Below are positions 24,827-63,499 of a stretch of 64,000 bases of DNA, piece by piece (the first letter of the stretch is position 1; the number at the start of each line of letters is the position of its first letter). The translations under genes and the position numbers were made by a program. The notes under the pieces are model-generated. The model worked only from the letters and a program-made list of their open reading frames with translations. It searched no databases and had not been told where the DNA came from. This DNA is from Begonia masoniana (taxonomy: Eukaryota > Streptophyta > Magnoliopsida > Cucurbitales > Begoniaceae), in NCBI GenBank assembly GCA_022432975.1, contig CM039506.1, positions 16,318,121 through 16,382,120 on the forward strand. The letters are read 5' to 3'.

Positions 24827-24838
24827 TGGTATCAGAGC
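24827..24838 (+). other. Primer binding site of element C
   Basis: TGGTATCAGAGC, four bases after the LTR end, is an exact complement of the initiator tRNA-Met 3' end. Confidence 0.92.
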
Positions 24839-24987
24839 CCCCGGGTTTTAAAATCGGTTCTGTAGACTGCTCGACTGCACAGCCACTACGCGGACATTCT
24901 CCATCAACTGTAAGTATGCTTATAGTTTATTTGATTCCTGTTTTCTTAGAGATATTTGCTTTTAAATTTTATAGGAGTTATATAAAC

Positions 24988-28990
<4,003 letters not shown>

Positions 28991-29005
28991 ATAAGGAGGG
29001 TAGAA
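28991..29005 (+). other. Polypurine tract of element C
   Basis: ATAAGGAGGGTAGAA directly precedes the 3' LTR start. The TTTTGAGGACAAAATT motif stands just upstream, as in element A. Confidence 0.85.
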
Positions 29006-35251: not shown

Positions 35252-35256
35252 TGCAT

Positions 35257-37020: not shown

Positions 37021-37240
37021 CACGTTCTTTCTCTGATCTGATCCCTCGGTTCCATTGGGAGTTGGATCAATTTTCCCAAAATCATACATCCTCTTCATCG
37101 ATTAAGGGGCAGATTAGTTCCCTTAACAGTTGATCTGATCCTATATTCCATTGGGAAGCGGATCAATTTTCCAAAGTCATACATTTTCTTCATCGATTAA
37201 GGGGCGGATTAGTTCCCTTAACCGTTGGTCTATTACAATC
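37021..37240 (-). repeat. Tandem duplication in LTR F
   Basis: Two copies of about 113 bp contain TCGATTAAGGGGC and GATTAGTTCCCTTAA, separated by a GGATCAATTTTCC segment. The same duplicated unit is in LTR J at about 62706-62930. Confidence 0.75.
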
Positions 37241-37639
37241 TGTTCATGCCTTACCATGTCATTACATGTAAATTCATTTTCGTGTTCTTTCCAAAACATG
37301 ATACATGACATACAGAAAACATTCAAACAAGCATAAACTTACTGTTTTGTGATGTAGAGCCAAAGGTGTAACGCCCCCGAACCCACCCTGGCTCGGTGCA
37401 CTACTTTGCTAACTAGACCCGCGTTAAAACATAATTTTCTTAAACCTCAAAACATAAAACTAAACTGACACAGCTGAACTTAAAGCTAATTCTCTCGAAA
37501 CTCTCTTATGTCATACCTAGCTGCCTAGACTCACTAATTCCCTTATTCCTAACCATGAAGCACCACGGCGTCCTTCCCGAAAATTTCGACAAAGTAACGC
37601 CTGTAAATGGCTCCTCCAAAATGCTAGGTACCTAAAAAA

Positions 37640-40600: not shown

Positions 40601-40670
40601 GCCGCTCCCATGAGTCCCTCGGGATGTCACTTCTCACGCGACCTAGGGCGACTCGACTCCCTCGACTCAG
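37640..40670. repeat. Array of about 60 units with two alternating monomers
   Basis: Monomer A is 48 bp (it contains GACTGTCTCACATAGTCCCT). Monomer B is 45 bp (it contains CGCTCCCATGGAGTCCCT). Both share TCCCTCGCG and TCACGC/TGACGC cores, so they are diverged versions of one ancestor. B occurs about 16 times, irregularly. Units are near-perfect until about 40100, then degrade with indels and extra C bases to 40670. Both lengths are multiples of three, so ORFs of up to 784 codons appear on both strands. They have no start context and are not genes. Confidence 0.92.
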
Positions 40671-40739
40671 ATTTCCCTTCATGCTCACCACCCACTACCA
40701 TGCTTGAAACTCAGGGGTTCGTAGTTCGAAAACACTGAA

Positions 40740-41100
40740 ATGCCACGCCCAAAAGCTAAACCATTACTCAACCGAAACATAACAATCAACCACAAAATAA
40801 TGCCCTACAGTACCATAACTCAGAATGAAGCAAAGCAACCAAACGACAATTGATTCCTTAACGCGACTCCACCAAACCATAATTGCTACATTATCGTTCA
40901 ACTTAGCAGTTTCGTCTCCATACAATGTCTAACCAACAAATGAGACAACCAAACAACCAACAACCAACAATGTTTAACCAACAAAGAAAACAACCAACCA
41001 ACAACAACCAACAAACAACCAACAATGCTTATCCAACAAAGAAGCCGACCAAACAACAACTATCACAAAATAAACCCTACCGTTCCGTGCTGTAGGCCCA
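40740..41100. other. AAC-rich part of LTR G
   Basis: This segment is dominated by CAACCAACAA-type words. There is no ORF and no recognised signal apart from its membership of solo LTR G. Confidence 0.6.
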
Positions 41101-41929
41101 AAGGCAAAACACAACGTCCTCTACTTACCTGGCGTTCTAGCCCGTTCAGAATGCTTGATTTTCTGTCCACCTACGACTCGACCTACGATAAATAGTCAAA
41201 CTTTATTAAAATCAAGCCTACATCCACTAATTTACTCTCAAACTACTATTTCTAGCCTAATCTAACTAAAACCTAACTAAACGGGCCATTAATTTGGGTT
41301 CGGTAAAAACCGACCCAAAACTTCAAACGCGCGTAACTTTTGCGTCGGATATCGGAATCGAATGATTCTAGCGGCCACGTACTCCTCTAATACCCTATTT
41401 TAACTTGCCAAAAGGAATTTTAAAACAAACGACCCTAGCTAGGTCAAAACTCAGAAAACCCGAATCTGCCCTTAACCTGAAAATTCCCCGTTTCTTATTT
41501 TTCATCAATTCTCACCAATTCCTTCACCAATCGATCACATATATCCTCAATTAGCATAATCTAACCAAAAATCCCGAGATAACAAGCAAAACCCGAAATG
41601 CCCAAATCGGGCTTAACTGTATTTCGCCCAAATTGAGCTTCCCACAACTCGGGGACCATTGCTGGTCCAAGGGTCGGCAAACCCATGCCGAGAGCTCCCA
41701 AAATCGGCCGGTGGTCGGAGCACAAACTCGCTCCTCACCCTCGGCCACGAACAGAGCAAAAACAGAGGAAAACTTATGCATACCGATCGATTTGTGCGCG
41801 GCGACGGCGGAAATGGCAGCCCTAGAAGCTGTCGACGTTGTCTGGCTGGAACCACGGCGGTGAACGACCGTCGCCTTCGTCGCTCGCGCCTCACCCTCTC
41901 CCTTGCTCTGCCATGCGGTCGGGAAATCG

Positions 41930-41961
41930 AACAACAGAATGGCTTCGGCCATTCTGTTGTT
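41930..41961 (-). repeat. Hairpin in LTR G matching the C-family hairpin
   Basis: The plus strand reads AACAACAGAATGGC, loop TTCG, GCCATTCTGTTGTT: a perfect 14-bp stem. Against 21415-21449, one internal pair changes from G-C to A-T and the apical pair changes from T-A to C-G on both arms. Confidence 0.85.
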
Positions 41962-42457
41962 TTATGTTTTGTTTTATTTATTTATTTTTAATAATAATAA
42001 TAATAATAAAACTAACTGTAACGACCCCGGAGGGATCGCCACGTATACATGACTTTCGTGATCATTTACCTCTTAACCTCCACACTCTGTTCTTTAAGTG
42101 ATACTATTATATATTTCTTTTGAACAGACTTAGAACTTAAAACTTGACTCGCGAGCAACATAACGTCTGACAGAAACTAACTCATCCAAAAACCCGACTC
42201 TTTTATTAATATAGTGAATTGTTAGTTCACAGAACCGAGCGACTAGGCTTGGCCATCGGCTTCCTGACAAATTCGGGCAGAGAAGAAATGCCCGCAAATC
42301 TCTTAACATAATCCTACTCAGGTTTGCATGGGTTTGCATGCATCAACCCACAGAAATTACATCATCCGGTCATCACGTGCATTACGCGTGGCTCACTTAT
42401 CATCGCCTATCAGAGGACATCTTCCGGTGAGCACGAGTCAAACACGTGACTCCTTAA

Positions 42458-42790
42458 ATTCTCATCCGGTCACTAGGCGACAAAATAGCATTTACATCAT
42501 CCGGTAGAGAAATACACTTCATCCACCGGTCACTAAACGACAGAATAACGTGTACGTCATCTGGAAGAGAAATACACTTCGTCTACTGGTCATTAAACGA
42601 CAGAATAACGTGTACGTCATCCGGAAGAGAAATACACTTCGTCTACCGGTCACTAAACGACAGAATAACTCCCTTCTTATCCGGTGTTAAAACACCTACA
42701 TCACCCGGTAGTGGACCTCTACCGGTCACTAGATGACAAAAATGACATTCACATCGTACAGTGACATCCACTGGTCACTAGACGACAAAA
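42458..42790. repeat. Minisatellite with about 60-bp units in LTR D
   Basis: Tandem units contain ACCGGTCACTAAACGACAGA and ACGTGTACGTCATC. Element H inserted into one such unit of the other LTR (49667). The units continue there at about 49590-49666 and 55496-55745. Confidence 0.85.
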
Positions 42791-43173
42791 TACCCAAAAT
42801 CCTCAAACAACTCATACAGAAGGTAGAGTAATAACTTCTCTAAACTCCATACTTCTTACATATAAACCTAATAGGTATAACTCATAGACTCAACCGGATC
42901 ATTTAAAGCGGAAGACTTAATCAACAGATCGTTTAAAAATCCTCAAAATCATTTCCAGATTCATTAATTAAACCAGACAATCTCAAGATCCAACGTTTCG
43001 AAATAACCTTATCCTACTTAAACTTTCATATTCATTATCATAATAGGAATCATAAAACGTTAACCAGGGGTCGTAATCGCCCGCCAGCCACAGACTTCCA
43101 CCTTGGGCACCTTCCAGCAGCCAATCCTAAACATCCTCATTGATTTTGAAATCCTCACCTGAATGCTCTTCAC

Positions 43174-43825
43174 CTACATCATTAGGTGTAACTGTAAGCC
43201 TAAAGCTTAGTAAGGAATGCAATACTATCACGAGTGCATGAATGCATAATTCAGAGAAAAACATGGTCATGAGTCTTTTCTTGTTCATATTCATTGTTCC
43301 ATATTCATCATTCATATCATAGTTCATATCGCTGAACCATATTCATCATTCATATCATAGTTCATATCGTTGAATCATGTTCATCATTCGTATCATAGTT
43401 CATATCGTGTGGGATGAGAGAGGATTTGTGCCGGTAAAGGGGGTTCGACAGTGTGTTTGATCATGGTCCCTACTGCGGGTCGTATTCATATGTCCTACTG
43501 CGGACTGTGACATACGCCGAACCCACCCCAACCCTCACTCAACCACGTTGTAGGGATTTTATCATCTTATCTTGTTCATAAGAAAACATGTTTTTAAAAC
43601 ATTTTCGTATGCATAAAACATTGATAATGCATGAGCATGAGATTCTTTAACTCATCCTAGCTATATGACAGAACATTCATCCAGTGTGAAAACTTATCAT
43701 CGAACTAATCATCAACATAAATGCAAGACAGTAACATGAAAGAACTACTGATTATCGTATGAGTTTCTAACTAGCATCCTTTGATGTAGGGTCCTATTGA
43801 CCGGGAAACCTATACATTCACTTAC
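43174..43825 (-). other. Intron-like structured module in 3' LTR of D
   Basis: In minus sense, a donor CAG|GTAAGT lies at 43825. Box 1 (CCTACATCA, 43790-43782) pairs with box 2 (TGATGTAGG, 43181-43173) over 9 bp. The hairpin TAAGC-TTTAG-GCTTA (43209-43195) lies 20 nt before the acceptor at 43174. Implied intron: 652 nt. Confidence 0.5.
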
Positions 43826-44356
43826 CTGGTCTCCTTAGCATTTTGAGCTCTTTCTCTTCAAACTTCTTCACCTAAACATTCACATTGCAGTAGTTAAAAC
43901 AAAGTCCTAAAAGTTCTAACCTCAAGTCATCCTAGGGTCTAATAGACAAAGCCATTCCGAATCCTTAGTCTAACGCTCTGTGAAAATATGAAATCCAAGA
44001 GCTGAAATAGACAGGTTCGACTATTGGTTACACAGGGTTGATTGTTCTTTAAGTGTCCAAAACTGATTCGGAATGACATTACCACTCTCAGATTAACAAT
44101 GAACTATATTATTACCTTGTTGCTTAGGGATTTGAGCTACGGGTTTAAGCTGAAAACAGAGCTAAACGATTAACTGATAACTACATTGCCTAACTCATAC
44201 CTCGAGCGTAGAGTATGCGAGAAATGGCAAGGAAATCGATTGTCGGAAGGGAAATTTCCAGCTGACAGAGAGCGGGAGCTTGGGAGAGAAGAAATCGCCG
44301 AGAATGGAGAATGTCGGCTACAGTGGGTTAATGAGGTTTGAATCCTTTCCATTTCC

Positions 44357-44364
44357 TTTAAATA
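44357..44364 (-). promoter_or_regulatory. TATA-like box in 3' LTR of D
   Basis: In sense this reads TATTTAAAGG, about 160 bp into the LTR. The identical site is at 57303-57310 in the 5' LTR, where it would drive the element's transcript. Confidence 0.5.
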
Positions 44365-44524
44365 ATGGCCTCAATCATCCATTATTACAACCTTGCCACT
44401 CAACCTAGTTAAAATCCACATATAATTCATTAAACTTGTCATAAAATTCTAAACCGCGAAGATTAAATATTCATGACCGTTAATACAGTTAGGAAAATTA
44501 CCTAGTCGTGACTCGGGTGTTACA

Positions 44525-44541
44525 TCCACCCCTCCTTAAAC
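44525..44541 (-). other. Polypurine tract of element D
   Basis: In sense it ends AAGGAGGGGTGGA immediately before TGTAACACCC, the start of the 3' LTR. Confidence 0.88.
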
Positions 44542-44565
44542 AAAATTTTCGTCCCCGAAAATTGA

Positions 44566-47500
44566 TCATCCAAACAACTCAGGGTACTTGTCTAACATGT
44601 CCTGTCGTCGCTCCCACGTGGCTTCTTCAATGCCGTGATTCTTCCATAAAACTTTGACCAACGGAATCTCCTTATTCCTCAGAGTCTTCACTGCAGATTC
44701 CAATATTTGTACAGACTTCTCCTCATACATTAATGTTGGCTCAATTTCAACTTCTGTTGGCTGAACTACTTGCATCGGATCTCGTATGCATTTCCTTAAC
44801 ATTGACACGTGAAAGACATCGTGAACCTTATCCAATGATGGAGGCAATTTCAGCCTGTAAGCTGTACTACCGATTCTAGCTAAAACAAGGAAAGGTCCAA
44901 TAAATCGTGGAGTAAGTTTTCCCTTCTTGCCAAATCTTAGGACTCTTTTAAATGGTGAAATCTTCAGGAGTACTTCATCACCAACAGCAAATTCAAGATC
45001 CCTTCTCCTTTGGTCTGCATAACTCTTCTGTCGGCTTTGAGCAGTGATCATTCTTTTCCTAATAGTGGCAATCTTGTCTGACATCTGCTGCAATAACTCA
45101 GGACCTAGGAGTTTTGTTTCACCAACTTCATCCCAATACAGAGGTGATCTACATTTCCTACCATACAACGCTTCATAAGGCGCCATACCAATAGTGGACT
45201 GATAACTGTTATTGTAAGAGAACTCAACCAAGGGTAGATATCGGCTCCAAGATGCCTGAAAGTCTAGTACACAAGCCCTCAACATATCCTCAAGTATTTG
45301 GATAGTCCTTTCTGATTGGCCATCTGTCTGTGGGTGGAAAGCAGTGCTGAAGGATAACTTTGTACCTAATGTGCCTTGCAAACTTTTTCAAAACCTCGAG
45401 GTGAATCTGGGGTCACGGTCGGAGACAATAGATAAAGGGATTCCATGTAATCTGATAATCTCCTGAACATACAGGTCAGCAAGCTGGTCCATTGAGAAGG
45501 TTGTTCTTACCAGTAAAAAGTGGGCGGACTTTGTCAACCTGTCAACCACAACCCAAATACTATCGTGTCCTTTAGTTGTCTTGGGCAAACCTACAACAAA
45601 ATCCATGGCAATGTTTTCCCACTTCCATTCGGGAATGGGTAAAGGTTGAAGGGTACCTCCTGGGCGTTGATGCTCTGCCTTAACTTGTTGGCATACTAAA
45701 CATGACTCTGCAAACTTGGCCACATCCCTCTTCATGTTTGGCCACCAATAATGTAATCTTAAATCCCGATACATCTTGGTTCTACCAGGATGCACAGAGA
45801 AGGAAGATGAATGAGCTTCGGTTAAGATTAATTTACGTAACTCCTCATCACTTGGAACGTACCATCGATTTCTAAACTTTAAAATACCATCCACGGAGAG
45901 GCTGAACTCAGAGGAGGCATCCTTTAACTTACTCATCATACTATTATTCTCCTCCGAGTCCTTCTGTTGTGCCTCTTTGATCTTATATAAAACAGTTGGT
46001 TGGATGGTTAGAGTAGTAAGTAGGTTTGACAGTTCAGGAACTATTTCCAATTCAAATCTCTGAACCTCCATCCTTAGAGGTATAGACATGGTTGATATCG
46101 CGGGTTGCATGGTCTTTGACATCCTGCTTAATGCGTCAGCCACAGCATTGGCCTTACCCGGGTGATATTTAATTTTGAAGTCATAATCCTTAACAAACTC
46201 CAACCAACGTCTTTGTCTCATGTTCAATTCCTTTTGAGTGAAAAGATATTTCAAGCTCTTATGGTCAGAAAATACTTCACACTGTCGTCCATACAAATAG
46301 TGTTTCCAAATTTTCAATGCAAAAACAACAGCGGCCAATTCTAAATCATGGGTGGGGTAATTCTGCTCATAACTCTTTAACTGTCTTGAAGCGTATGCTA
46401 CAACTTTGCCCTCTTGCATTAGGACACACCCTAAACCAACTTTGGATGCATCACAGTAAACACTGAACTTTCCTTCTTCGGTGGGGAGAGTTAAAAGTAG
46501 GGCTGTCGTTAACTTCAGCTTAAGTGTCTGGAAGCCATCTTCACAGGCTTCAGTCCAAGAGTACTTGGTGTCCTTCTTTGTCAGACCAGTTAATGGCTTA
46601 GCTAACATAGAAAATCCTTTAATAAACTTCCTATAATAGCCTGCCAGACCAAGAAAACTTCTGACCTCACTGACATTCCTTGGCTGTGGCCAGTCCTTAA
46701 CAGCCTGGATCTTGGCTGGATCTACTGATATACCCTCAGCAGAAATGACATGGCCTAAAAAGTTGACCTTATCCAACCAGAACTCACACTTCGACAACTT
46801 GGCATAAAGTTGCTGCTGTTTCAATGTTGTCAAAACCACTCTTAAATGTTCTGCATGATCATCTTCGGTCTGTGAGTATATAAGGATATCATCAATGAAT
46901 ACAATCACAAACTTGTCCAAATATTCACGAAACACTCGGTTCATCAAATCCATAAAAGCTGCAGGTGCATTGGTTAATCCAAACGACATTACAAGGAATT
47001 CATAATGTCCATAACGGGTTCTGAAGGCTGTCTTAGGTATGTCTCCCTCTTTAACCTTCAGTTGGTAATAACCCGAACGTAAATCTATTTTTGAAAACAC
47101 TTTTGCTCCTTGCAATTGGTCAAACAAATCATCAATCCAAGGTAAGGGGTACTTATTCTTGACTGTCAACTTATTTAGTTCCCTGTAGTCTATGCACATT
47201 CTGAGGGAACCATCCTTCTTCTTGACAAATAAGACAGGTGCACCCCAAGGGGAACTGCTAGGGCGTATAAATCCTTTGTCTACCAATTCCTGCAGTTGAA
47301 CCTTTAACTCCTTTAATTCTACAGGTGCCATACGGTAAGGGTTCTTAGACACCAGCAATGCCTCGGGATATGTATCAATTACAAACTCCACTTCTCTATC
47401 AGGTGGTAATCCTGGCAAGTCATCCAAAAATGCCTCAGGGAACTCTCTGACTATGGAAATATCTTGTAACTCTATCCTATTCTTCACTCGAACATCCATT

Positions 47501-48978
47501 ATACTAGCTAAGTAACTCTCACAACCATTTTTCAGTAACCGGTAAATTTCTAGTGAGGATATAATCGGTATTTTACTTATCTTAGGAATAGCTTGGAAGG
47601 AATAATGATCACCATTTGGGGGTCGGAATTCAACCAAACCAGATCTACAACTTATTGTGGCATAGTGCCTAAATAACCAATCCATTCCTAATATCACCTC
47701 ATACCCTTTCATGTCAATTACGATCAGTTCTACGTATAGTTTTCTACTTCCTAAGGACACAACATCACCTTTAACAATCTGTTCAGAATGTAGGGACTTC
47801 CCTGATGGTAACATAACACTAAATGATCTTTCAGCTGGTAGAGATCCTATGTTATGGTTGCATACAAACAAGGTTGATATAAACGAGTGTGTGGCTCTAG
47901 TATCTATAAGCGTATAAGTTGAAATACCACAGATCATAATTGTACCTCTTATGACTGTATGCTGCACGGCTTCCTCATCTTCCATCATGGCAAAGACTCT
48001 GGGTGCTACCCTTGCACGGTTCGGATCTGGCGGCATGGGGCAGTCTCTGGCTATGTGTCCAACTTTATCACATCTGAAGCATCGTCCAGAATGCAACTTG
48101 CACTCACCATGGTGGTTCTTCTGGCAGTTGGAACATAGAGGGGCCAATGGTCGTTTTCCTTTCCCTTGGTCATCATTCTAGTTGAGGGGTCTCTTTATAC
48201 CTTGCTGTTGTTGCTGTGGCCCCCTGTTCTGTTGCGGCTGCCAACCTCTGCTCTGACGTGGTGGCGGCTGAGTTTCCTTCGTGAACTTCCTTGGTTGCTC
48301 ACGCTGTGCATATGCTGTCATCTCAGCCTCTTCCAACTCCAAGGCCTTAGCCGTCACTTCACCATAAGGCACATTGTGTATCCCAGCAGTCTTTACTTTC
48401 ACGAACAAACTCGGCTTCAGTCCTTGAACAAATTGATAAATCTTGTCCTCATCATCCTCAACCATACGGGGAGCAAATCGTGACAAAGCATCAAACTTGC
48501 AAATGTAGTCCGTCACAGAGCCAGTTTGTCGTAGATTCATGAACTTCTTCTTCTTGTTGGCCCGAACAGTCCTATTAAAGTACTTATCAAAGAAAGCAGC
48601 CTTGAACATTTCCCAGGTCATAGCTCCTGTATTGGGGGTACTCTGGAGTGAGTCCCACCAATGTCTTGCACTCAACTCCAAATGAAAGGCGGCATAAGTG
48701 ACCTTATCTCCCTCATCAACCTTTGCATACCTGAACATGTCCTCAATCTTTCGAATCCATTCCTCAGCATAAACAGGATCCGGAACTTGTCCATTAAATA
48801 CCGGGGGTCGAAGCCGGTGGAAATGCTCACCCCCATGGTCATGAGTTGCATTGGAGCGAGAATTTCCCTGCTCTTCCCTCAGCTGTTCGATCTGGCGAGA
48901 TTGACGCATGACCAACTCAGTCAGTTGAGCAATAGCATTGCTATCCTCATTACTCTCTCTCTGTTGTCCTCTAACCAT
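44566..48978 (-). pseudogene. Element D gag-pol polyprotein, one frame, two in-frame stops
   Basis: From the ATG at 48978 to the stop at 44566-44568 there is a single frame of about 1,470 codons, broken only by TAG at 48178-48180 and TGA at 45388-45390. Domains in order: gag capsid (residues 1-266, with ARHWWDSL and EMFKAAFFDKYF), CCHC zinc knuckle [14 protein letters not shown] (about 300), aspartic protease, RT ([10 protein letters not shown], catalytic Asp pair at 46888-46893), RNase H ([10 protein letters not shown]), integrase with HHCC and DDE core ([10 protein letters not shown], then FHPQTDGQSERT with normal D-E spacing) and a chromodomain-like end (VLWKNHGIEEATWE). The protease active site reads DTRATHSF where DSGATHSF or DTGATHSF is usual, so the key Gly is Arg, probably a GGA-to-AGA change. 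Both stops fit CAG-to-TAG and TGG-to-TGA changes. Gag and pol share one frame, as is common in this group. Confidence 0.95.
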
Positions 48979-49124
48979 CTTGAGATTCCTAACAAATAGT
49001 CATAAATACATCTTAACTTAATGACACTTACTGAAATCATAAACACTTACAGTTGCTGGAGTGTACTCAGGTGGCAATCTGTGCTGGGAGGCAGTCTGCA
49101 GAATCGATTTTAGAACCCGGTTTT

Positions 49125-49136
49125 GCTTTGATACCA
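49125..49136 (-). other. Primer binding site of element D (variant)
   Basis: In sense it is TGGTATCAAAGC, four bases from the 5' LTR. It differs from the initiator tRNA-Met complement TGGTATCAGAGC by one base. Element H has the same variant. Confidence 0.85.
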
Positions 49137-49666
49137 TAATTGTAACGACCTCGGAGGGATCGCCACGTATACATGACTTTCGTGATCATTTACCTCTTAA
49201 CCTCCACACTCTGTTCTTTAAGTGATACTATTATATATTTCTTTTGAACAGACTTAGAACTTAAAACTTGACTCGCGAGCAACATAACGTCTGACAGAAA
49301 CTAACTCATCCAAAAACCCGACTCTTTTATTAATATAGTGAATTGTTAGTTCACAGAACCGAGCGACTAGGCTTGGCCATCGGCTTCCTGACAAATTCGG
49401 GCAGAGAAGAAATGCCTGCAAATCTCTTAACATAATCCTACTCAGGTTTTCATGGGTTTGCATGCATCAACCCACAGAAATTACATCATCCGGTCATCAC
49501 GTGCATTACGCGTGGCTCACTTATCATCGCCTATCAGAGGACATCTTCCGGTGAGCACGAGTCAAACACGTGACTCCTTAAATTCTCATCCGGTCACTAG
49601 GCGACAAAATAGCATTTACATCATCCGGTAGAGAAATACACTTCATTCACCGGTCACTAAACGACA

Positions 49667-50753
49667 TGATGTGCCTACGATCCTGAAGCACAGACCAAGG
49701 TATGTATTTTGACTATTTTATTTACTAATTGGTTTGTGAATTTTGTAGGAAAAAGGTTGACTTAAAGCTTGGAATTTTAAAGAGGGAATTTGTCTTCTCA
49801 TTTACAAATTGTGTAACCAAGCTAGTATTTAATATTTAATTTACTTTGGCAAACAATGGCCTTTTATGTAATTTGGGCAAACATTTAGTCCTTATATTTA
49901 GTCATGCGTAATTAGGCATTTAAGGGTAGATTGTGTGGGTAGGATTAGTGGTGGCTTTAAGGTTGGGTTGCAACATTGGGTATTTCAAACCCACACAAAA
50001 CTTATGGGCCTAAATTTCAGCCCATTAGCCTTAAGCCCACTCACCCTCAAGCACTAAAGCTTCAGCCCAAACCTCACATGAAGAAGCCTAGCCCATTTGA
50101 CTTCAATCTGCTCCTCACCTTCACGAAGAAGCCCAGCGAGCATTCAGCAACCGAGAAGCGATCTCCAGTCGATCGCCCAGTGAGCGACCACGAGCTTCAG
50201 AAATCGACGGTGATCACTCCGCGAGCGCACAGATTGCCCACCTGGACGAGCTGACCAGTCGAAGCCCTTCCTTGCTCCAAGCAAGCAGCCTTGTCAGCTT
50301 TGGGTTCCCATTTCGCGAATGCCTGGCAGAAGCCTTCCAACGGCTATTTTCTTCTCTCGGCATTCCCAACCCTAGCCACCTTAGGTATTTAAGCATCACT
50401 TTTAGTGTTTGTACGTAACTTTTTTTATCAATACAAACCTATTTTCCCTCTCTGAAAATCCAGAAGGTTTTCTGGTTGTTGTCAAGGTAAGCCACGGCGG
50501 TTCTGCCGTGAGGAGTGTGCCTCCATTGATCACCAGCCTTACGGTGGCTGTGGTCTCTTATCTTCCCTCCCTCTCTGTTATCGGAGTTTAAAAGGCTGAG
50601 GATGAAACCGGGCCCAGCAGCTGTTGCCTTTCCACGGGAAGGCATGCACCGAGAAGCATAACATGAGATAGCTTCTCGGTCAGCCAAGGGTTTTCCACAT
50701 TCCATTTCACCTCCATTTTATTTTGTTCTGTTTTCCTCCCCCATTTTCTGTCA
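49667..50753 (+). repeat. 5' LTR of element H
   Basis: 1,087 bp, TG...CA. A TATA-like TATTTAA at 50386-50392 lies about 720 bp in. Downstream are a donor-like CAAG|GTAAGC (about 50485) and a GC-richer leader. A 92-codon ORF at 49976-50254 is present in both LTRs, but I have no support for it as a gene. Confidence 0.93.
50386..50392 (+). promoter_or_regulatory. TATA-like box of element H
   Basis: TTAGGTATTTAAGCATCAC; the same site is at 55128-55134 in the right LTR. It is the best candidate for the core promoter, as it follows a long AT-poor stretch. Confidence 0.5.
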
Positions 50754-50755
50754 AG

Positions 50756-50767
50756 TGGTATCAAAGC
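50756..50767 (+). other. Primer binding site of element H (variant)
   Basis: TGGTATCAAAGC, two bases after the LTR. It is identical to the variant site of element D and one base from the initiator tRNA-Met complement. Confidence 0.85.
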
Positions 50768-52943
50768 CGAACCTGGCTTTGTGTTGTTTTCATTTCTGTT
50801 ATTTGTGTTATTCTGTCGTTTGTCATTATTTTCCTTTGTTCTCTGTTTTCAGGTCTGTGTTGTTTTCATTTTCTCTGTTTATGTGTTCTTTCTCTGTGTC
50901 TTATTTAAAGTCTGTTGAGTCGTTGTTTTTGCTAACTAAAAATAATCTATGCTTCTTGAACTCAATTCTGCTTTTAACTTGCATGGAGGCAAATTTTATT
51001 AGCAAATTATTAATCTGTTTAATTGATGTCTGTCTGAGTTGTGAGTTTGTTTGGTTGTAAGTCTGTCATTGTCCCTGTTTTGCTAAAAACAAAGCATTCC
51101 ACGTTTGCATGAGATTTTGATTTGCTTTCTTCACATAACAGAAAGAACTTCACATGCATAATCATCAAGGCATACGTTTAGTTTACAGGTTGTCTTTTGT
51201 TTGTCTTCATTAATTTTCATTTCTGTTATGGTGATGTCTGTCAGCATGTTTTATGTTGTGTTTTTAAGTTGTCCGTTTGCACGTCTACTTTTGTTTTTAC
51301 AGAGCCAAAAAAAAAAAAATTGTTAACGTTGATCATCTATTGTGTTTGAATTAGAAGTTAGACTATTGAATGTTTGGTAGTCTGTTTTCATCATGATTTA
51401 TTTTCTGCCTTTACTATAACTTGTTAACTTTCGTATGCATATCTAATTCTGTTTACAGAGACTAGCGTGTTTAGGATTGATAACTTGATTTTCTAATTTT
51501 ACTTTCCAGAATTGAACTTCATGATGATTGTTTAGTGTTTTCTCATTTTTCATTTATGTTTTTACCCGTGAGTGTCATCATGTTGCCTTTTGTTTCCTTC
51601 TCTGTGTTGTCTCATTTTAGCATGTTGTCATTGTCATCCTGTTTACTTGTCTTAGCTAATGATACTTATCTTGCATAATAACCATATTATTTTTGCTAGT
51701 AAACCTGAGTATTTTCTTGAGAAATCTTTTGCTGAGTTCTATTAAACTTTCCAAAATCTTCACGTTTGCATGAATTACCTCCCCGCTAAATTAACCAGAA
51801 GTGTATCATCTGGTATTATACAGAATTCCCCCGTAAGCATTAATGTTTTCTGTTAGTTAACAAAGGTGTTTAAGTCAGAATTTTTCTCTGATATACTTCT
51901 ACTTGAAGCATGTTTCTGTTGCCATTCTTTGTCTTAACCGATTCTGCTTCCATGAAAATTCTGATGTTGATCTGTAGGTTAAACAAGATGTTTCCTTAAT
52001 ATATTTGTGCATCATCCTGACTGCTATCTTAGCCAATTTTATTTAGGATAAATATACTGCATCGTGATGGACAACATGATAAATATTGAGCAAAGTCAAG
52101 AACAACTTAATAGCTAACTGTTTTAGCGAGATTTGGAACCTGTGAAAGAATTTTGTTGCTACAAGTTGGTCTTCTAAAAATCAAAATTCTGTTTTCCTAT
52201 CCTGCTGTTTTCACTGTGAAGTTTTAATGTGATTGTCTGTTATTCTCTGTGTTTTTCCTTAGGATTAATTCTGTTTGTGGTGGTATTTGTTTAGCTAAAT
52301 TGAGTGCTTCAAATTACATCTTTCTTTCAGTTTTAAACTGTTGTCTAGTAGCTTTTATTGTGTATTGTGTAGCCGATAAAACTATTTTTATCTTGCTGAT
52401 ATTGACATTGTTGCTGCATAAAATTGAGCATATTGTTTATTTGCTGTTAAACGTATCATTTCAGCATATTTTTTTTTATTGTTACGTGAAGCTTAAGGGA
52501 ACAAAATAATCACTCATTCATATCATTTTGTTGGCTGAAATCTGCTCTATAATCTGGTTTATTGCTGAAATCCGATTTTTTTATTGCATAGAATACTAAT
52601 CTGTTTACTGTTGTTATGAGCTTTATTGGTTAAACATCTTACGGCAAAATATCATCACTTAACCTAGGCTTGAGTATAATAGACCAGCATCTTATAAAGT
52701 GATTATTACTTGCTATTTTTGTTTGCTGAAGTTGGTTGTTCTAGTGATAGCTAAGAAACTGTTCTAAACCGATTCTATTTTGCTGCTAAACTGTTGTTCT
52801 AGTCTGTTCTGTTATGTGAATCTGCTTTCTATTTTTCAAGCAATAAATCCAAATTGTTGTTAATCACTTAGGACATTTATAGGTTGTTTAAAGCCTAAGT
52901 CTTTGCTTTTATTTTACTGTTATTTACACTATATAAAAAAAAA
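50768..52943 (+). other. Long T-rich leader of element H
   Basis: This 2.2-kb stretch is strongly T-rich on the plus strand, with recurring TCTGTTTTCATT-type words and no ORF above about 90 codons with a credible product. It sits between the primer site and the orphan ORF, where other elements have an untranslated leader. Confidence 0.65.
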
Positions 52944-53747
52944 ATGGTTGGACAAAATCATTTCGATTGTGAACAAATTGATTCTGAGTTTGATAAACTT
53001 GTTGAAAATTATTTCCAAACCGAAAGATTATGGATTAAAAACTATGTACTTTTTCTTGAAGAAAACATTGAATGGTTAGTTAAATGGTTTCCTAATTTGC
53101 ACCATGAGTATATGCATTTTTTTTAATTAGAAAATGCCATGAATGTTAGTTTTAAGGAACAAGATGTTAAAAGTGTATTGTTGGAAGATGTTTTTGATGA
53201 ATCACCACTTCTAAATTTATTTTGTGAGAATTTATATGATTTGGGATGTATTGATGAATTAGTTTATTTGGAAGAAATAACTAATTGCAGCAAAGTTGTG
53301 GAAGAGTTTCCGTCCCAAAAGGACAAACTTCATTGCTTGGATGACATGTTTTCTACCATCCAAAATCGAGTAGCTCCTGAGGTTATCATGTGGTATAACC
53401 CATTGTATGATGACCCTAGGAAGGAAATTTTAGTAGAAGACTTTGTTGAGTTGCCCATAGCTAAAGAGGAACCCTTCCAACTTGTGGTTAAAGGTATGTC
53501 GGATCTCCAAACCCGACAAGGCACAACCATGGTAAGCACTATAAACCCAAGGTGTATACCTTTAGATACTTTAATTTCTTGGTTGTTTAAAATTGGATGG
53601 TTTGAAAGTTATTTACATAAGAGTGCTAATTTACCTTTGTTGCTTAATATTAATGAGCCAATTATTATGACTAATACAAGGTATGTATCTCTTGACCATC
53701 TACTTGATTGGTTATTTAAAATTAATTGGATGGGAAAATTATTTTGA
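52944..53747 (+). CDS. Orphan protein of element H, first part
   Basis: The frame opens with an ATG after an A9 stretch at 52944 and is broken by one TAA at 53124-53126. It continues in the same frame (LENAMNVSFKEQD) to 53747. The total is about 267 codons, acidic and rich in Leu, Asp and Trp. I recognise no family. Two copies of a short motif appear near the end: LISWLFKIGWFESYL (about 53568-53612) and LLDWLFKINW (about 53700-53730). The TAA may derive from CAA. Just after the second motif the frame is lost and coding character continues in the next frame. The position between primer site and 3' LTR is where gag-pol would be. Function is unknown. Confidence 0.6.
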
Positions 53748-54411
53748 TAGTGCATTACAGGTTCCTCATATTTTGCATAATGATTGGGATAACTATATAA
53801 ATTTGGATCTTTCTTGCATTCATATTCTCTTGCGACATTCCTTTAGTTTCGTAAAGATTATTCTTTGCTTAAATGACATGAGGCTATTATTGGATAAATT
53901 TAGAATCATTGAGATAGAGAATTATGACGATAATGATGTTGTTTGGATTACGTGGGAGTTTATTTTTGACGAATCCATATTTGACTCACCCATGTTCTGC
54001 AAGTTTCACTTGCCAAGCTATGACTCTTATTTTATCTCTCGGAATGTTTTATCTAATCACTTAATCACTTGGTTACTTAGAATTGGATGGATAGATGATT
54101 ATTTTATTCGTGTTATTACTCTGGTTGTTCTTGCTAATATTAGATGCAATTTTAAATGTCATTTATCGAAGCATGACTATGAAATTATGAAAAGAACTAG
54201 GAAGAGAAATGTTGTTGATACCATTTTGTTATTAATGTGGATTGAATATTATTGGTGGTTAAAGGGCTTACAATTATTTGCAATGATGAATGTTTACTTT
54301 TTAACTTTTTTTAAATTCAAAATAGTTAGTCCTAATTTTGAAGAAAACCCACTTCGGGGCGGATCAACTATTAGATTTGAGGTCAAATCTTCAATCACCC
54401 GGAGAGGATGA
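53683..54411 (+). CDS. Orphan protein of element H, second part (shifted frame)
   Basis: After 53735 the motif context continues in the +1 frame (WENYFDSALQVPHIL), matching the spacing after the first motif copy (WFESYLHKSANLPLLL). This suggests a single-base indel, or less likely programmed frameshifting. A third motif copy, LITWLLRIGWIDDYF, is at about 54058-54102. The frame ends at a TGA (54409-54411) formed by the first bases of the 3' LTR, so the coding region runs exactly to the LTR edge. The last residues (ENPLRGGSTIRFEVKSS) are basic. With the first part it would make about 490 residues. No homolog comes to mind. Confidence 0.6.
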   Translation: MYLLTIYLIGYLKLIGWENYFDSALQVPHILHNDWDNYINLDLSCIHILLRHSFSFVKIILCLNDMRLLLDKFRIIEIENYDDNDVVWITWEFIFDESIFDSPMFCKFHLPSYDSYFISRNVLSNHLITWLLRIGWIDDYFIRVITLVVLANIRCNFKCHLSKHDYEIMKRTRKRNVVDTILLLMWIEYYWWLKGLQLFAMMNVYFLTFFKFKIVSPNFEENPLRGGSTIRFEVKSSITRRG

Positions 54412-55495
54412 TGTGCCTACGATCCTGAAGCACAGACCAAGGTATGTATTTTGACTATTTTATTTACTAATTTGTTTGTGAATTTTGTAGGAAAAAGGTT
54501 GACTTAAAGTTTGGAATTTTAAAGAGGGAATTTGTCTTCTCATTTACAAATTGTGTAACCAAGCTAGTATTTAATATTTAATTTACTTTGGCAAATAATG
54601 GCCTTTTATGTAATTTGGGCAAACATTTAGTCCTTATATTTAGTCATGCGTAATTAGGCATTTAAGGGTAGATTGTGTGGGTAGGATTAGTGGTGGCTTT
54701 AAGGTTGGGTTGCAACATTGGGTATTTCAAACCCACACAAAACTTATGGGCCTAAATTTCAGCCCATTAGCCTTAAGCCCACTCACCCTCAAGCACTAAA
54801 GCTTCAGCCCAAACCTCACATGAAGAAGCCTAGCCCATTTGACTTCAATCTGCTCCTCACCTTCACGAAGAAGCCCAGCGAGCATTCAGCAACCGAGAAG
54901 CGATCTCCAGTCGATCGCCCAGTGAGCGACCACGAGCTTCAGAAATCGACGGTGATCACTCCGCGAGCGCACAGATTGCCCACCTGGACGAGCTGACCAG
55001 TCGAAGCCCTTCCTTGCTCCAAGCAAGCAGCCTTGTCAGCTTTGGGTTCCCATTTCGCGAATGCCTGGCAGAAGCCTTCCAACGGCTATTTTCTTCTCTC
55101 GGCATTCCCAACCCTAGCCACCTTAGGTATTTAAGCATCGCTTTTAGTGTTTGTACGTAACTTTTTTGATCAATACAAACCTATTTTCCCTCTTTGAAAA
55201 TCCAGAAGGTTTTCTGGTTGCCGTCAAGGTAAGCCACGGCGGTTCTGCCGTGAGGAGTGTGCCTCCATTGATCACCAGCCTTACGGTGGCTGTGGTCTCT
55301 TATCTTCCCTCCCTCTCTGTTATCGGAGTTTAAAAGGCTGAGGATGAAACCGGGCCCAGCAGCTGTTGCCTTTCCACGGGAAGGCATGCACCGAGAAGCA
55401 TAACATGAGATAGCTTCTCGGTCAGCCAAGGGTTTTCCACATTCCATTTCACCTCCATTTTATTTTGTTCTGTTTTCCTCCCCCATTTTCTGTCA
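54409..55495 (+). repeat. 3' LTR of element H
   Basis: It has the same length as the 5' LTR (1,087 bp) and about 99.3% identity by eye. The short purine stretch GGAGAGGA before it may be the plus-strand primer. Confidence 0.93.
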
Positions 55496-56131
55496 CGACA
55501 GAATAACGTGTACGTCATCCGGAAGAGAAATACACTTCGTCTACCGGTCACTAAACGACAGAATAACGTGTACGTCATCCGGAAGAGAAATACACTTCGT
55601 CTACCGGTCACTAAACGACAGAATAACTCCCTTCTTATCCGGTGTTAAAACACCTACATCACCCGGTAGTGGACCTCTACCGGTCACTAGACGACAAAAA
55701 TGACATTCACATCGTACAGTGACATCCACCGGTCACTAGACGACAAAATACCCAAAATCCTCAAACAACTCATACAGAAGGTAGAGTAATAACTTCTCTA
55801 AACTCCATACTTCTTACATATAAACCTAATAGGTATAACTCATAGACTCAACCGGATCATTTAAAGCGGAAGACTTAATCAACAGATCGTTTAAAAATCC
55901 TCAAAATCATTTCCAGATTCATTAATTAAACCAGACAATCTCAAGATCCAACGTTTCGAAATAACCTTATCCTACTTAAACTGTCATATTCATTATCATA
56001 ATAGGAATCATAAAACGTTAACCAGGGGTCGTAATCGCCCGCCAGCCACAGACTTCCACCTTGGGCACCTTCCAGCAGCCAATCCTAAACATCCTCATTG
56101 ATTTTGAAATCCTCACCTGAATGCTCTTCAC

Positions 56132-56771
56132 CTACATCATTAGGTGTAACTGTAAGCCTAAAGCTTAGTAAGGAATGCAATACTATCACGAGTGCATGAA
56201 TGCATAATTCAGGGAAAAACATGGTCATGAGTCTTTTCTTGTTTATATTCATTGTTCCATATTCATAATTCATATCATAGTTCATATCGCTGAACCATAT
56301 TCATCATTCATATCGTTGAATCATGTTCATCATTCGTATCATAGTTCATATCGTGTGGGATGAGAGAGGATTTGTGCCAGTAAAGGGGGTTCGACAGTGT
56401 GTTTGATCATGGTCCCTACTGCGGGTCGTATTCATATGTCCTACTGCGGACTGTGACATACGCCGAACCGCCCCCAACCCTCACTCAACCACGTTGTAGG
56501 GATTTTATCATCTTATCTTGTTCATAAGAAAACATGTTTTTAAAACATTTTCGTATGCATAAAACATTGATAATGCATGAGCATGGGATTCTTTAACTCA
56601 TCCTAGCTATATGACAGAACATTCATCCAATGTGAAAACTTATCATCGAACTAATCATCAACATAAATGCAAGACAGTAACATGAAAGAACTACTGATTA
56701 TCGTATGAGTTTCTAACTAGCATCCTTTGATGTAGGGTCCTATTGACCGGGAAACCTATACATTCACTTAC
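56132..56771 (-). other. Intron-like structured module in 5' LTR of D
   Basis: This is the copy that the genomic transcript of element D would contain. The donor is at 56771, the acceptor GATGTAG|GTG at 56132-56133 and the hairpin about 20 nt before it. Implied intron: 640 nt. Confidence 0.5.
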
Positions 56772-58252
56772 CTGGTCTCCTTAGCACTTTGAGCTCTTTC
56801 TCTTCAAACTTCTTCACCTAAACATTCACATTGCAGTAGTTAAAACAAAGTCCTAAAAGTTCTAACCTCAAGTCATCCTAGGGTTTAATAGACAAAGCCA
56901 TTCCGAATCCTTAGTCTAACGCTCTGTGAAAATATGAAATCCAAGAGCTGAAATAGACAGGTTCGACTATTGGTTACACAGGGTTGATTGTTCTTTAAGT
57001 GTCCAAAACTGATTCGGAATGACATTACCACTCTCAGATTAACAATGAACTATATTATTACCCTGTTGCTTAGGGATTTGAGCTACGGGTTTAAGCTGAA
57101 AACAGAGCTAAACGATTAACTGATAACTACATTGCCTAACTCATACCTCGAGCGTAGAGTATGCGAGAAATGGCAAGGAAATCGATTGTCGGAAGGGAAA
57201 TTTCCAGCTGACAGAGAGCGGGAGCTTGGGAGAGAAGAAATCGCCGAGAATGGAGAATTTCGGCTACAGTGGGTTAATGTGGTTTGAATCCTTTCCATTT
57301 CCTTTAAATAATGGCCTCAATCATCCATTATTACAACCTTGCCACTCAACCTAGTTAAAATCCACATATAATTCATTAAACTTGTCATAAAATTCTAAAC
57401 CGCGAAGATTAAATATTCATGACCGTTAATACAGTTAGGAAAATTACCTAGTCGTGACTTGGGTGTTACACTAACTATTAATTAAATCCACATTTACCGT
57501 TTTGCCCTCCCGTATTTTCGACCATTCCAATTTCGTTAAATCTCGTTATTAAATTAACCTAATCCCCGACTTAATTTCAATCAAATTCATTCACTTTACA
57601 TTTCAATTATTTAAACTCAATTATTTAAAACAACCTATTTTATTATTCTTTTAAATTTTTCTCCAATTAAAAAAAATCTCGGGTGTTACAAAAGGCACAC
57701 ACACACTCTACTTATCTGGTTTCCTAGAAAAGTTTGGTTGCAAACTACTTCGGGTTTTGCTCAAACCTATAGCCGTAGACAAAGTATTAGTTAAGCTTCA
57801 TTCTAAACTATCCACAAATCTACCAGAACTCATAAGAAAACTAGTTTGGGAGCTCAAATCATCAAACATTCCTGATATGCCCCAAACCCGAACAAACTCT
57901 CACTTACAGCATTCTCAAAACTCACATTTAAGATCCCCTCTAACATCGATAATTACAATGTAGCATGAAATCGAAGTAAAACTCACCTAGCTTTGAGAAA
58001 ATGGGAGAGAAAATCGCCGAGAGAAACTCTGCTTAGCTGAGCTTAATGCCGAGAAAGGAAAATGAGAAACAGTGGCGGCTAAACCTTCATCAAACCCTCC
58101 ATTTATAACACTGCTTTACAATTACTCAAATGCCCTTGGCTAACCAACTTTAACCTATTTAACCAACCAATCAAATTCACTAAATTTCATAAAAATAAAA
58201 GTTACAAAATGACGTTATTAATTAAATAAGGTGGACAATACCGGTTGCTACA

Positions 58253-59648: not shown

Positions 59649-60320
59649 GTAAGTAATGTTACATATGTTTGGCCAATTGACTTACATCACAAGGTGCTAG
59701 GAAAATAATCGTTATTGATGGATTGAATTAGGTGATTTATAAGAACTGTTAGAATATGTAGTTATGGATTGGTAAGAATGAGTAGATTATGTTATAGATT
59801 TAGCTTGCTGTTATGGTTAGATTGTTAGATTGTTTATTGTTATTGCTTTGAGGATATGTTTATGAGATGTTTATGATTATGTTAAATTGAGGATATGTTG
59901 ATATGTATTGTTTATGAATTCATACATCATGTTTTACAAAAGCATAGAAAATGAATTTATGCATATGTTTTCTTGTAAGAAAGATAAAGAATGAAATGAA
60001 AGTAAAATACGTAAGTGGTCATGTTTGGGAGGGAATAAGAGTATGGCCGTCTCTTACAAAGGGGACCGTAAGGTATGCCTTCTTCCCTCCTCCCCCCCCC
60101 CCCCCAAAAAAAAAAAAAGTGAGTTAGGCCGTCTCGTACAAAGGGGACTATCAGGTGTGCCTACTCCTCTAGCATGAGCTAACCTATATGACTAGCATTA
60201 GAGAAAGAAAAGATGCAAATGACATTGTTTTTACGAACACGCATATCCATGAGCATGCATATTTTTATTGACATTATTTACTGAGTGTTAGGCTCATTAA
60301 ATGAACCTTGATAATGTAGG
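59649..60320 (+). other. Intron-like structured module in LTR I
   Basis: A donor GAG|GTAAGT lies at 59649 and the acceptor AATGTAG|GTG at 60319. The hairpin TGAG-TGTTAGG-CTCA (60282-60296) contains CTCAT. Box pairing is weak here (TACATCA against TAATGTA). Confidence 0.45.
60092..60118. repeat. Short C14-A13 tract
   Basis: Fourteen C are followed by thirteen A between two copies of the 60048/60128 unit. It shows that modest homopolymers occur at this LTR position. Confidence 0.9.
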
Positions 60321-61985: not shown

Positions 61986-62158
61986 TGTAGCACCCGGCAA
62001 TTATTGACTTGAATTGACGTTAGTGGTGTACGTTTTTATGGAATTAAAGGCGATATGACTAATTGTTTGAGTATGTTAATGAATGGAAATGAGAGAAACA
62101 ATGGTTAGGTTAAAGTTTGGATTGACAAGGGCATATGTGTAATTTGTGAAATATAGGA

Positions 62159-62165
62159 TATAAAT
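62159..62165 (+). promoter_or_regulatory. TATA box of LTR J
   Basis: GGATATAAATGAAGGG, about 170 bp into the LTR. LTR F has the equivalent TTATAAATGG in minus sense at 58101-58108, at a similar distance from its start. Confidence 0.55.
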
Positions 62166-62546
62166 GAAGGGTTTAGTGAAAGGTTTTAGCCACCACACTA
62201 TTCTTCTTTCCCTTTTCGGAGCTCAGCTCAGCAGGTTCCCTCGGCGATTCTCCTGCCCGGTTTCTTCAACCTAGGTGAGTTTTACTTCGATTTCCTGTTG
62301 TTTAGTGGTTAGATAATAGAGGGGTTGTAGAATGCGTGTTTTGAGAGTGCTGTGAGTAAGAGTTTGATTTGGGTTTTGTGGTGAATCGGGGAATGCACGT
62401 GAAACAGAATTCCCAACTAGCTTCCTTAGATTTCTGGATGAATTAGAATGAAGTTTAGTGAAGATTTAATTAATACTCTGTTTATGGTTTTAGGTTTGAG
62501 CAAACTCCCGAAATAGCTTACAATCGAACATTTTCCAGAAGGCCAG

Positions 62547-63055
62547 GTAAGTAGAGTATGTGTGTGCCTTTGGGTCTACATCACAAGACAGTATGGTTCA
62601 TGTATGTTTGTATGATTTTTAGTTTGGTATGTATCATGTTTTTGAAAGAATACAAAAAATGAATTTACATATATAATGGCATGGTAAGACATGAGCAGAT
62701 TGAATCAGATTAGCTATTAATGGAATTAATCAGTCCTTTAATAGAGATAGAGGATATTTATACTTTGGGAAAAATGATCCACTTCCCATCGAACAGGGGG
62801 ATCAAGAACAGCTATTTTAAATCAGATTAACTATTAAGGGAATTAATCCGCCCCTTAATCGAGACAGAGGATATTTATACTTTGGGAAAAATGATCCGCT
62901 TTCCATCGAACAGAGAGATCAACAGGGAACAAACATAAATACAACATGAGCTATGAGAGTAGAAACTACATGAATAGGGTTTATGTTTCAGCATTTCATT
63001 TCATTATTGCTCTACTTATTTAGCATTAGGCTAATAGATGAGTTTTGTGATGTAG
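62547..63055 (+). other. Intron-like structured module in LTR J
   Basis: A donor CCAG|GTAAGT lies at 62547. Box 1 (CTACATCACAA, 62576-62586) and box 2 (TTGTGATGTAG, 63045-63055) pair over 11 bp, and over 16 bp if three G-U pairs are allowed. The hairpin TTAGC-ATTAG-GCTAA (63020-63034) has CTAAT in its 3' arm about 21 nt before the acceptor AG at 63054-63055. Confidence 0.6.
62706..62930 (+). repeat. Two tandem copies of a 114-bp unit in LTR J
   Basis: Each copy contains ATCAGATTARCTATTAA, GGATATTTATACTTTGGG and GATCCRCTTYCCATCGAACA. They differ at about a dozen positions. LTR F has the same pair in minus sense. Confidence 0.85.
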
Positions 63056-63499
63056 GTGCAGAGGTGACTACAGGTGAGTTCTCCGAGTATATTAAGGAAT
63101 AGGGGCAGTTGGAGGAGTGCATTCATGCAACGGATTGGTAACTGATAAGGCAATTTAACCAGTGGCGGTATGTGAATTTTAGTAGACTATCGAATAGCCA
63201 ATGAGTAGCTGAATTTTTAAATTGACAGTGATGACTTTCAATGTTTTGATTTTGGATTGAAAACTCTTCGGAGATGAAACTTGTCGATTTCGAAAGAAGT
63301 CTTTTGAATTGAAATTTCTGGAAGTGTGGATTTGAATACATTTTGGATTAGTGTTGTTTTTACTGGAAGTGTGGATTTGACTAAGTTTTGGATTAGTGAT
63401 GTTTTTAAATGGTTACGGTCGAGATGCTTCAAGCTTTCTTAGCTGTTGAAGTTGTCCATCGATTAGTGCATAATCGGTTAAAGTATTGTTCAGTTGTTA

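Follow-up and report, generated by a model that had tools for sequence, protein, structure and literature searches.

The long terminal repeats (LTRs) of a nest of Ty3/gypsy retrotransposons from Begonia masoniana share an intron-like module that lies within the LTR itself. The whole analysis was made on one 64-kb window (the entire stretch of DNA presented here, from contig CM039506.1), in which nine LTR lineages, A, B, C, D, E, H, I, J, and K, were compared. The module consists, in this order, of an AG/GTAAGT donor (a slash marks a splice junction), box 1, a middle part, a small hairpin, and box 2, which ends at a GTAG/GTG acceptor. We give a probability of about 0.5 to the reading that the module, which would be the second intron of the leader (intron 2), is a spliceosomal leader intron partly restrained by conserved RNA structure and separating mRNA from genome RNA. 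The module may decide if the element RNA is translated or copied. From the sequence we infer that the intron is spliced, less efficiently because of the structure, and that spliced and unspliced RNA go on to different fates.

Recurrence and inheritance of the module

An earlier sequence-only reading of the window had proposed a shared intron-like module in the LTRs of A, B, C, D, E, I, and J. All of these carried it, H and K carried it as well, and its recurrence was far above chance. The donor motif AGGTAAGT occurred 12 times versus 1.52 expected, and nine of these sites were in modules (A, B, C, H, I, J, K, and both LTRs of E); the other three were in a further LTR, M, at the upstream intron of I (15099, minus strand), and elsewhere (16131). 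The pattern of donor plus box 1 gave nine occurrences versus 0.01 expected, with M included and B and D missed, and the pattern of hairpin plus acceptor gave six versus 0.00 expected. After perfect arrays had been removed, the complete arrangement was found six times versus none in 300 shuffles. A covariance model of the 3' end, trained on all nine lineages that it then found, recovered 11 copies: one from each of these lineages plus those in the second LTRs of C and E. Up to an E-value of 5 there were no further matches. Rfam gave no match at the gathering score in the window and none up to an E-value of 1 in 61900-63300. The donor was GTAAGT in eight of the nine lineages and ATAAGT in D, and the first paired base of box 1 was at intron position 28-37. 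The GT donor (8/9) and a YTNAY motif a short way before the AG (8/9) agree with the sequence pattern of U2-type spliceosomal introns. The tenth LTR, M, contained the 5' half of the module only (donor 41128, minus strand).

The LTR families had also been called unrelated, which was not the case. Stretches of the LTRs of module families were 72-87% alike, and both intron ends could be aligned across families. A tree built from the 330 nt 3' of the acceptor separated the clades A,C,(B,H) and K,(E,(I,(D,J))), in which the main split had a support of 0.988, the grouping of A and C 0.57, and the position of E 0.48. Pairwise identity in these 330 nt was 36-58%, except for B and H (78%), compared with a mean column identity of 71% in the alignment of the 3' end of the module. 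As judged from these sequence comparisons, the group is one set of related Ty3/gypsy elements and the module is inherited among related LTRs; therefore, evidence for pairing must come from differences between families.

Box pairing, putative branch-site hairpin, and folding

The two boxes had been said to pair in family-specific ways, with both sides changing together. Wide-window duplexes were computed between 62 nt of the intron 5' end and the last 50 nt of the intron, and a later test took the boxes alone. In the latter, the summed energy of the own-box duplexes was -140.8 versus about -105 for non-cognate boxes, and 106 of 362,880 permutations were as good; without B, this was true for 8 of 40,320. 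The ungapped pair count outside the core gave p = 0.015 in the permutation over all families. The wide windows were noisier (4,081/362,880 overall, p = 0.011; 279/2,880 within clades, p = 0.097). The best wide-window duplex ended on the G of the acceptor AG in seven of the nine lineages; in B and K it stopped one base short of it. In J, box 1 (CTACATCACAA) started at intron position 30 and box 2 (TTGTGATGTAG/GTG) ended at 63055. Standard pairs changed on both sides at four box positions: pair 6 (C-G or T-A), pair 8 (A-T or G-C, with a G-T intermediate), pair 9 (T-A or C-G), and pair 11 (A-T or C-G). The core, CTACA in box 1 and TGTAG in box 2, was almost invariant across lineages.

The strength of the pairing differed between lineages. 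Shuffled 5' windows paired as strongly as the real ones in 0 (J), 1 (C), 1 (D), and 5 (A) of 1000 trials, a moderate 14 (E) and 24 (I), and a marginal 51 (K) and 61 (H). In B, pairing was no better than in shuffles (862/1000 as strong), and its best duplex was in another register. E, I, and K paired better with a bulge or internal loop than ungapped. The claim of family-specific pairing was supported, cognate boxes outperforming swapped ones; box pairing was broken in B, imperfect in D, E, H, I, and K, and weak within clades.

The small hairpin upstream of box 2 had the stems TGAG-CTCA in A, B, C, H, and K, TAAG-CTTA in E, and TTAG-CTAA in D, J, and I, the last without its final base. Its cells were paired in 95.5% of cases, compared with at most 42% in slid registers, and its covariation score was reached by 2 of 500 shuffles. 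The number of pairs with both-sided changes (one) and of pair types (three) was not unusual (396/500 and 268/500 shuffles, respectively). Pair 19-32 was GC in five lineages, UA in three, AU in one, and broken in none; on the tree, in which the place of E is supported at 0.48 only, this requires two double changes. The 3' arm read CTCAT, CTTAC, or CTAAT, matching YTNAY in eight of the nine lineages (not in I), as had been stated for the usual case, and the free N of YTNAY is therefore the covarying base. The A of this motif was 20-23 nt before the last G of the intron in all nine, and the motif is a putative branch site. A local alternative in the alignment fold, TTAC upstream of the hairpin paired with GTAG of the acceptor, showed no both-sided changes and was rejected.

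Ensemble folding, with the inserts of B, C, D, H, and I left out, produced the long helix between the boxes to the extents listed in Table 1; it was almost certain in A and J, strong in K and C, about half formed in D, and all but missing from B, E, H, and I (0.0-0.85 pairs). The acceptor AG was paired at 0.8 or more in all nine introns. When box 1 of A was shuffled, the pairing of its AG dropped to 0.39-0.72 in eight of eight trials. The J intron with its flanks folded with z = -2.51 (2/100 shuffles as good), and the helix was present.

Leader, proposed mechanism, and competing explanations

Other putative introns flank the module. TATA-like boxes were found at LTR position 139-172 in J, E, I, and D. 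Upstream of the module, a putative intron 1 has donors such as CTAG/GTGAGT in J and D, with variants of this in E, I, C, and B, and AG acceptors precede exon 2 (44-56 nt) in A, C, D, E, I, J, and K. Downstream, CAG/GTGAGG-like donors were present 15-24 nt past the module acceptor in several copies, and a short putative intron 3 is located between the primer-binding site (PBS) and the gag AUG in C and E (Table 1). If such an exon 3 donor were joined to the gag acceptor, no AUG would precede that of gag in E and C (in C, the check covered the last 150 nt of exon 1). Many exon 2 and exon 3 acceptors read TAG/GTGA and could therefore double as donors, as dual or recursive splice sites.

AUG triplets were unevenly distributed along this leader. 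Exons 1 and 2 contained one AUG in six families versus 9.8 expected by base shuffling (P = 0.0002). The module introns were tested in A, J, K, E, and parts of B, H, and D, and had more AUGs than dinucleotide shuffles in all seven. Observed and expected numbers were 22/16.6 in A, 20/13.3 in J, 33/21.8 in K, 41/23.2 in E, 24/14.7 in B, 23/14.3 in H, and 25/15.7 in D, and the excess was reached by 18 (A), 5 (J), 1 (B), and 0 (E, H, K, and D) of 500 shuffles. An excess was also detected in the E LTR beyond exon 3 (40/26.3). With putative introns around the module and module introns enriched in AUGs, splicing could switch the leader between an untranslatable (genomic) and a translatable RNA.

On this basis, we propose the following mechanism. 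The transcript would start probably about 200 nt into the LTR, and the leader would comprise exon 1, intron 1, exon 2, intron 2 (the module), exon 3, the rest of the LTR, the PBS, the short intron 3, and gag. Box 1 would pair with the last 9-14 nt of intron 2, so that the acceptor AG would lie inside the helix, and the branch-site motif would be held in the 3' arm of the hairpin just upstream of box 2. Unspliced RNA would keep the whole leader, including the 20-41 AUGs of intron 2 (counted in four contiguous copies), and would be a poor template for translation. Only RNA that has retained the intron can give rise, by reverse transcription, to an LTR that contains it, and the unspliced form would be the only one able to regenerate the intron-bearing LTR. 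In spliced RNA the AUGs of intron 2 would be gone, and the gag AUG would come first if the RNA were also joined to the acceptor before gag. Since the donor, box, and acceptor have been kept over deep divergence, the elements must leave some RNA unspliced; since splice signals and the hairpin have been kept, some splicing probably matters. Structure over the branch site and the acceptor would be a simple means to hold this balance. The more specific proposal, that the clamped acceptor and the hairpin-held branch site form a splice-gated switch of RNA fate within the LTR, with the unspliced, AUG-rich share serving as genome and the spliced share as gag-pol mRNA, and with the switch present in every copy, solo LTRs included, is tentative and in our estimate falls somewhat short of even odds.

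Several results weigh against the proposed reading. The number of lineages is small (nine, from one window). Part of the similarity of the boxes is due to shared ancestry and to the acceptor motif itself, and permutation within clades was weak for duplex energy (88/2,880 as good, p = 0.03) and gave 688/2,880 (p = 0.24) for the ungapped count. In the ungapped register, pair 9 was unpaired in six and pair 10 in five of the nine lineages. When box 1 of J was shuffled, the AG was still paired at 0.84-0.98 in eight of eight trials, and AG pairing alone therefore proves little. Within the leader, we recognized no intron 1 donor in A and K, and B had no AG acceptor before exon 2, the edge of which was placed by similarity. 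The exon 3-to-gag splicing that the model needs is predicted from consensus sites. The scarcity of AUGs in exons 1 and 2 was not significant by dinucleotide shuffling (3.3 expected, P = 0.11), the C and J regions past exon 3 showed no AUG excess, and intron 1 of C showed a deficit (6/12.7). Finally, thermodynamic folding gave the long helix in five introns only (A, C, D, J, and K). The sequence-only reading had envisaged a spliceable intron with its branch point and acceptor masked by structure. Its first half agrees with the donors, acceptors, branch motif, neighboring putative introns, and AUG enrichment; the position of the AG within the predicted helix, where this forms (five of the nine), fits masking.

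The main rival is that the helix aids splicing by looping out about 450 nt and bringing donor and acceptor to within about 30 nt of each other, like in the AC/GU introns of fish, which have the same topology as far as they are described in the consulted parts of PMC7404189 and PMC9198270. Arrays or inserted elements fall in the looped-out part in B, C, H, and I, which fits such bridging, and the longest pyrimidine run in the last 22 nt of the module introns was only 2-5. However, the runs were also 2-5 in five other putative introns, so the tract of the module is not specially weak. Moreover, the acceptor AG itself lies within the helix and the branch motif lies between the two strands of that helix, and paired regions in human genes avoid and obstruct such sites, according to the portion of PMC8052449 consulted. 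We regard bridging as possible, at clearly longer odds than the partly restrained intron. An ordinary inherited leader intron, in which box 2 is kept only as an acceptor and pairing is mostly due to chance and ancestry, would account for the homology of the families, the barely varying core, the weak within-clade permutation, the four introns without a predicted helix, and the failure of B to exceed its shuffles. It accounts poorly for the matched both-sided changes outside the core, for a hairpin pair that takes three forms and is intact in every lineage, and for A, C, D, and J, in which only 0-5 of 1000 shuffles were as strong; we consider it unlikely, more so than bridging.

An open frame of 13-17 codons followed by a stop (frame f2 after the acceptor) was present in eight of the nine lineages (63056-63102 in J), which raises the possibility of a small coding exon. 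A short acidic protein would then have its C-terminus encoded by exon 3, and the module would be its phase-1 intron. Differences by codon position 1/2/3 were 3/4/17 for J-D plus B-C (p = 1.9e-4) and 3/4/10 for A-C (p = 0.027), as would be expected of coding sequence, but the J-D and B-C contrasts were chosen after looking, and A-B, E-J, E-K, C-K, and J-K had no significant third-position excess (p = 0.17-0.64). The tail of H is frameshifted relative to B and I stops after two codons, and both were outside the codon-position table; an in-frame TGA stands just before the junction in A, B, and K, and no consistent AUG was found upstream. This explanation is improbable. That the boxes are the terminal inverted repeats of a DNA element inserted into an ancestral LTR is disfavored and, in our view, hardly credible: the inverted arms are about 450-650 nt apart, as such a reading would have it, yet the end of one arm coincides with a splice acceptor (with the last base in seven of the nine lineages, one base before it in two), both intron ends can be aligned between families, and the arms differ by family in a matched way. 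Polyadenylation control was dropped by argument.

Host elements and relation to known systems

The window is a nest of Ty3/gypsy elements, several of which are inserted into one another: the H intron is interrupted by element C, the B intron by a small repeat-flanked element, and the D intron by LTR M, which in turn holds element E. The element types and splice signals point to a plant-type origin of the nest. Element E carries the Pfam domains Retrotrans_gag, RVP_2, RVT_1, RT_RNaseH, Integrase_H2C2, and SH3_Tf2-1; gag, protease, reverse transcriptase-RNase H, and integrase follow in this order between LTRs with a PBS, as in Ty3/gypsy elements (Metaviridae). Its LTRs span 42013-44524 and 49137-57470 (the latter interrupted), with aligned pieces 98.4-99.1% alike, and a PBS-like TGGTATCA follows the LTR. 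No chromodomain family, which at the integrase C-terminus is the mark of Tekay (Del) chromoviruses, was among the Pfam matches at 1e-3 in the five open reading frames (ORFs) examined; the long LTRs are compatible with the Tekay (Del) clade, for which they are not defining. The pol of element E had no confirmed relative in viral_contigs, and its gag matched three proteins, the best of them 81% identical and encoded on a 790-bp contig filed under a bacterium, which is probably plant DNA in a bacterial assembly. Two stricter hairpin patterns had no match in viral_contigs or genome_contigs; a looser one matched 16 viral_contigs stretches, which were set aside unread as likely chance matches.

Table 1: Positions of the module copies, their parts, and neighboring features in the window. 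Introns are putative; "pairs" are helix pairs formed in the ensemble out of those possible.
Feature	Position	Strand	Details
Intron 2, LTR J	62547..63055	+	donor AG/GTAAGT (AG from 62545), acceptor TGTAG/GTG; 509 nt, contiguous
J box 1, CTACATCACAAGAC	62576..62589	+	intron position 30; 13.89/14 pairs with box 2
J box 2	63040..63055	+	last base ends the acceptor AG; 0/1000 shuffles as strong
J hairpin TTAGC-ATTAG-GCTAA	63020..63034	+	3' arm and next T give CTAAT (YTNAY); in minimum-free-energy fold
J LTR, 5' part	61986..62546	+	U3, TATA (~62158), exon 1, putative intron 1 (62275-62493), exon 2 (62494-62546)
J exon 3 start	63056..63102	+	open frame ending in TAG
Intron 2, LTR A	2273..2825	+	553 nt, contiguous; 11.76/12 pairs
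Intron 2, LTR B	7621..9224	-	996-bp repeat-flanked insert 7705-8700; box 1 mutated; 862/1000 shuffles as strong
Intron 2, LTR C	22416..24099	+	20-mer array 22629-24032 inside; 9.48/12 pairs, most of the array left out
Intron 2, LTR I	13381..14835	-	970-base C run inside
Intron 2, LTR H	20936..35784	-	interrupted by element C (20997-35251)
Intron 2, LTR D	36904..57715	-	donor ATAAGT; split by solo-like LTR M (57690-37367) holding element E; target-site duplication CCTTT; 7.55/14 pairs
Intron 2, 3' LTR of element E	43174..43825	-	652 nt, contiguous
Intron 2, 5' LTR of element E	56132..56771	-	640 nt, contiguous; 41 AUGs
Intron 2, LTR K	59649..60319	+	671 nt, contiguous; 10.18/13 pairs
LTR M, donor and box 1 only	41089..41130	-	
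Intron 3, element C, between PBS and gag AUG	24910..24974	+	ACT/GTAAGT ... TATAG/GA, 65 nt
Intron 3, element E, between PBS and gag AUG	48989..49050	-	ACT/GTAAGT ... TTAG/GA, 62 nt
gag ORF, element E	48178..48978	-	Pfam PF03732, PF19259

Several other features were noted. The J intron contains 1.9 copies of a 117-base unit (62703-62922) and, at 62656-62667, a motif like AAAATGAATTTA, which is common to the introns of A, B, D, I, J, and K and weaker in E. The insert in the B intron has 463-bp repeats that are 93% alike, with about 70 bp between them and a PBS-like site. A 48-base tandem array (62 copies, 37646-40602) lies inside LTR M, and a perfect 22-base unit repeated 206 times (29711-34253) occupies the expected place of exon 2 and the 5' half of the module in the second LTR of element C. 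Perfect runs of 970-2247 bases, some of them within LTR introns or a gag frame, were found at 3852-5170 (A), 5836-7129 (T), 9809-11158 (AT), 13687-14656 (C), 17763-20009 (T), and 25737-27335 (T). The C run, in I, is bordered by near-copies of one sequence. These perfect runs are likely assembly artefacts.

It is understood for only a few plant LTR elements how a single transcript is shared between translation and reverse transcription. If the present reading is true, a structure confined to the LTR would provide a testable, sequence-readable answer for one group of Ty3/gypsy elements. Solo LTRs would then disperse a regulated branch site along with its donor and acceptor across the genome, which would affect host gene splicing and annotation. 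In retroviral leaders, e.g., those of HTLV-1 and foamy viruses, a donor in R controls the ratio of spliced to genomic RNA; there only the donor lies in R, whereas donor and acceptor are both in the LTR here. Our literature search, in which coverage of subscription journals was thin, found no title or abstract start naming an intron inside a plant LTR, in agreement with the sequence-only reading, which knew of no such description.

Plant LTR elements are generally intron-less, with exceptions such as Ogre and EVADE, according to the consulted part of a review (PMC12786077). Ogre (Ty3/gypsy, Tat) and EVADE (Ty1/copia) resemble the present elements in having partially spliced introns; in the consulted parts of the sources, these introns are between or inside coding regions and none is described inside an LTR (PMC12786077, PMC6317226), unlike the module. 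The proposed function resembles that of BARE1 of barley (Ty1/copia), in which, as far as the source was consulted, partial splicing parts translated RNA from reverse-transcribed RNA, the pools for translation and replication are separate, and about half of the translated pool is spliced (PMC3735527). The BARE1 intron is 104 nt long, lies at the end of gag, and shifts the frame (PMC3735527, same part), whereas several putative introns, one of them structured, are found in the LTR and leader here. Splicing-based partition of RNA is thus already known in plant elements, and what we did not find described is the position within the LTR and the acceptor clamp. Tekay elements were absent from the expressed set in sunflower, as stated in the consulted part of PMC7730604, and RNA evidence may therefore be hard to get.

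Intron structures elsewhere share single traits with the module. The zipper and downstream stems of yeast introns are likewise helices placed by donor, branch site, and acceptor, and, in the part of PMC12350175 consulted, both strands of the zipper stem are between donor and branch point. In the module, by contrast, one arm lies near the donor, and the other, box 2, follows the branch motif and includes the acceptor, which leaves the branch motif within the enclosed part. Paired regions in human genes stay clear of branch points and of splice sites in use, and where they cover such sites they hinder them (PMC8052449, consulted in part). The fish AC/GU introns (Lin et al., as reported in the consulted parts of PMC7404189 and PMC9198270) likewise pair a donor-proximal with an acceptor-proximal sequence; they consist of repeats in host genes and aid splicing, whereas the boxes of the module are not dinucleotide repeats, covary, extend over the AG, and belong to a mobile element. 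A hairpin over the branch site is also known from the poison exon of SF3B3, a host gene, for which the consulted part of PMC11802352 mentions no acceptor clamp; in the module, a hairpin over a putative branch site is combined with a predicted clamp over the acceptor.
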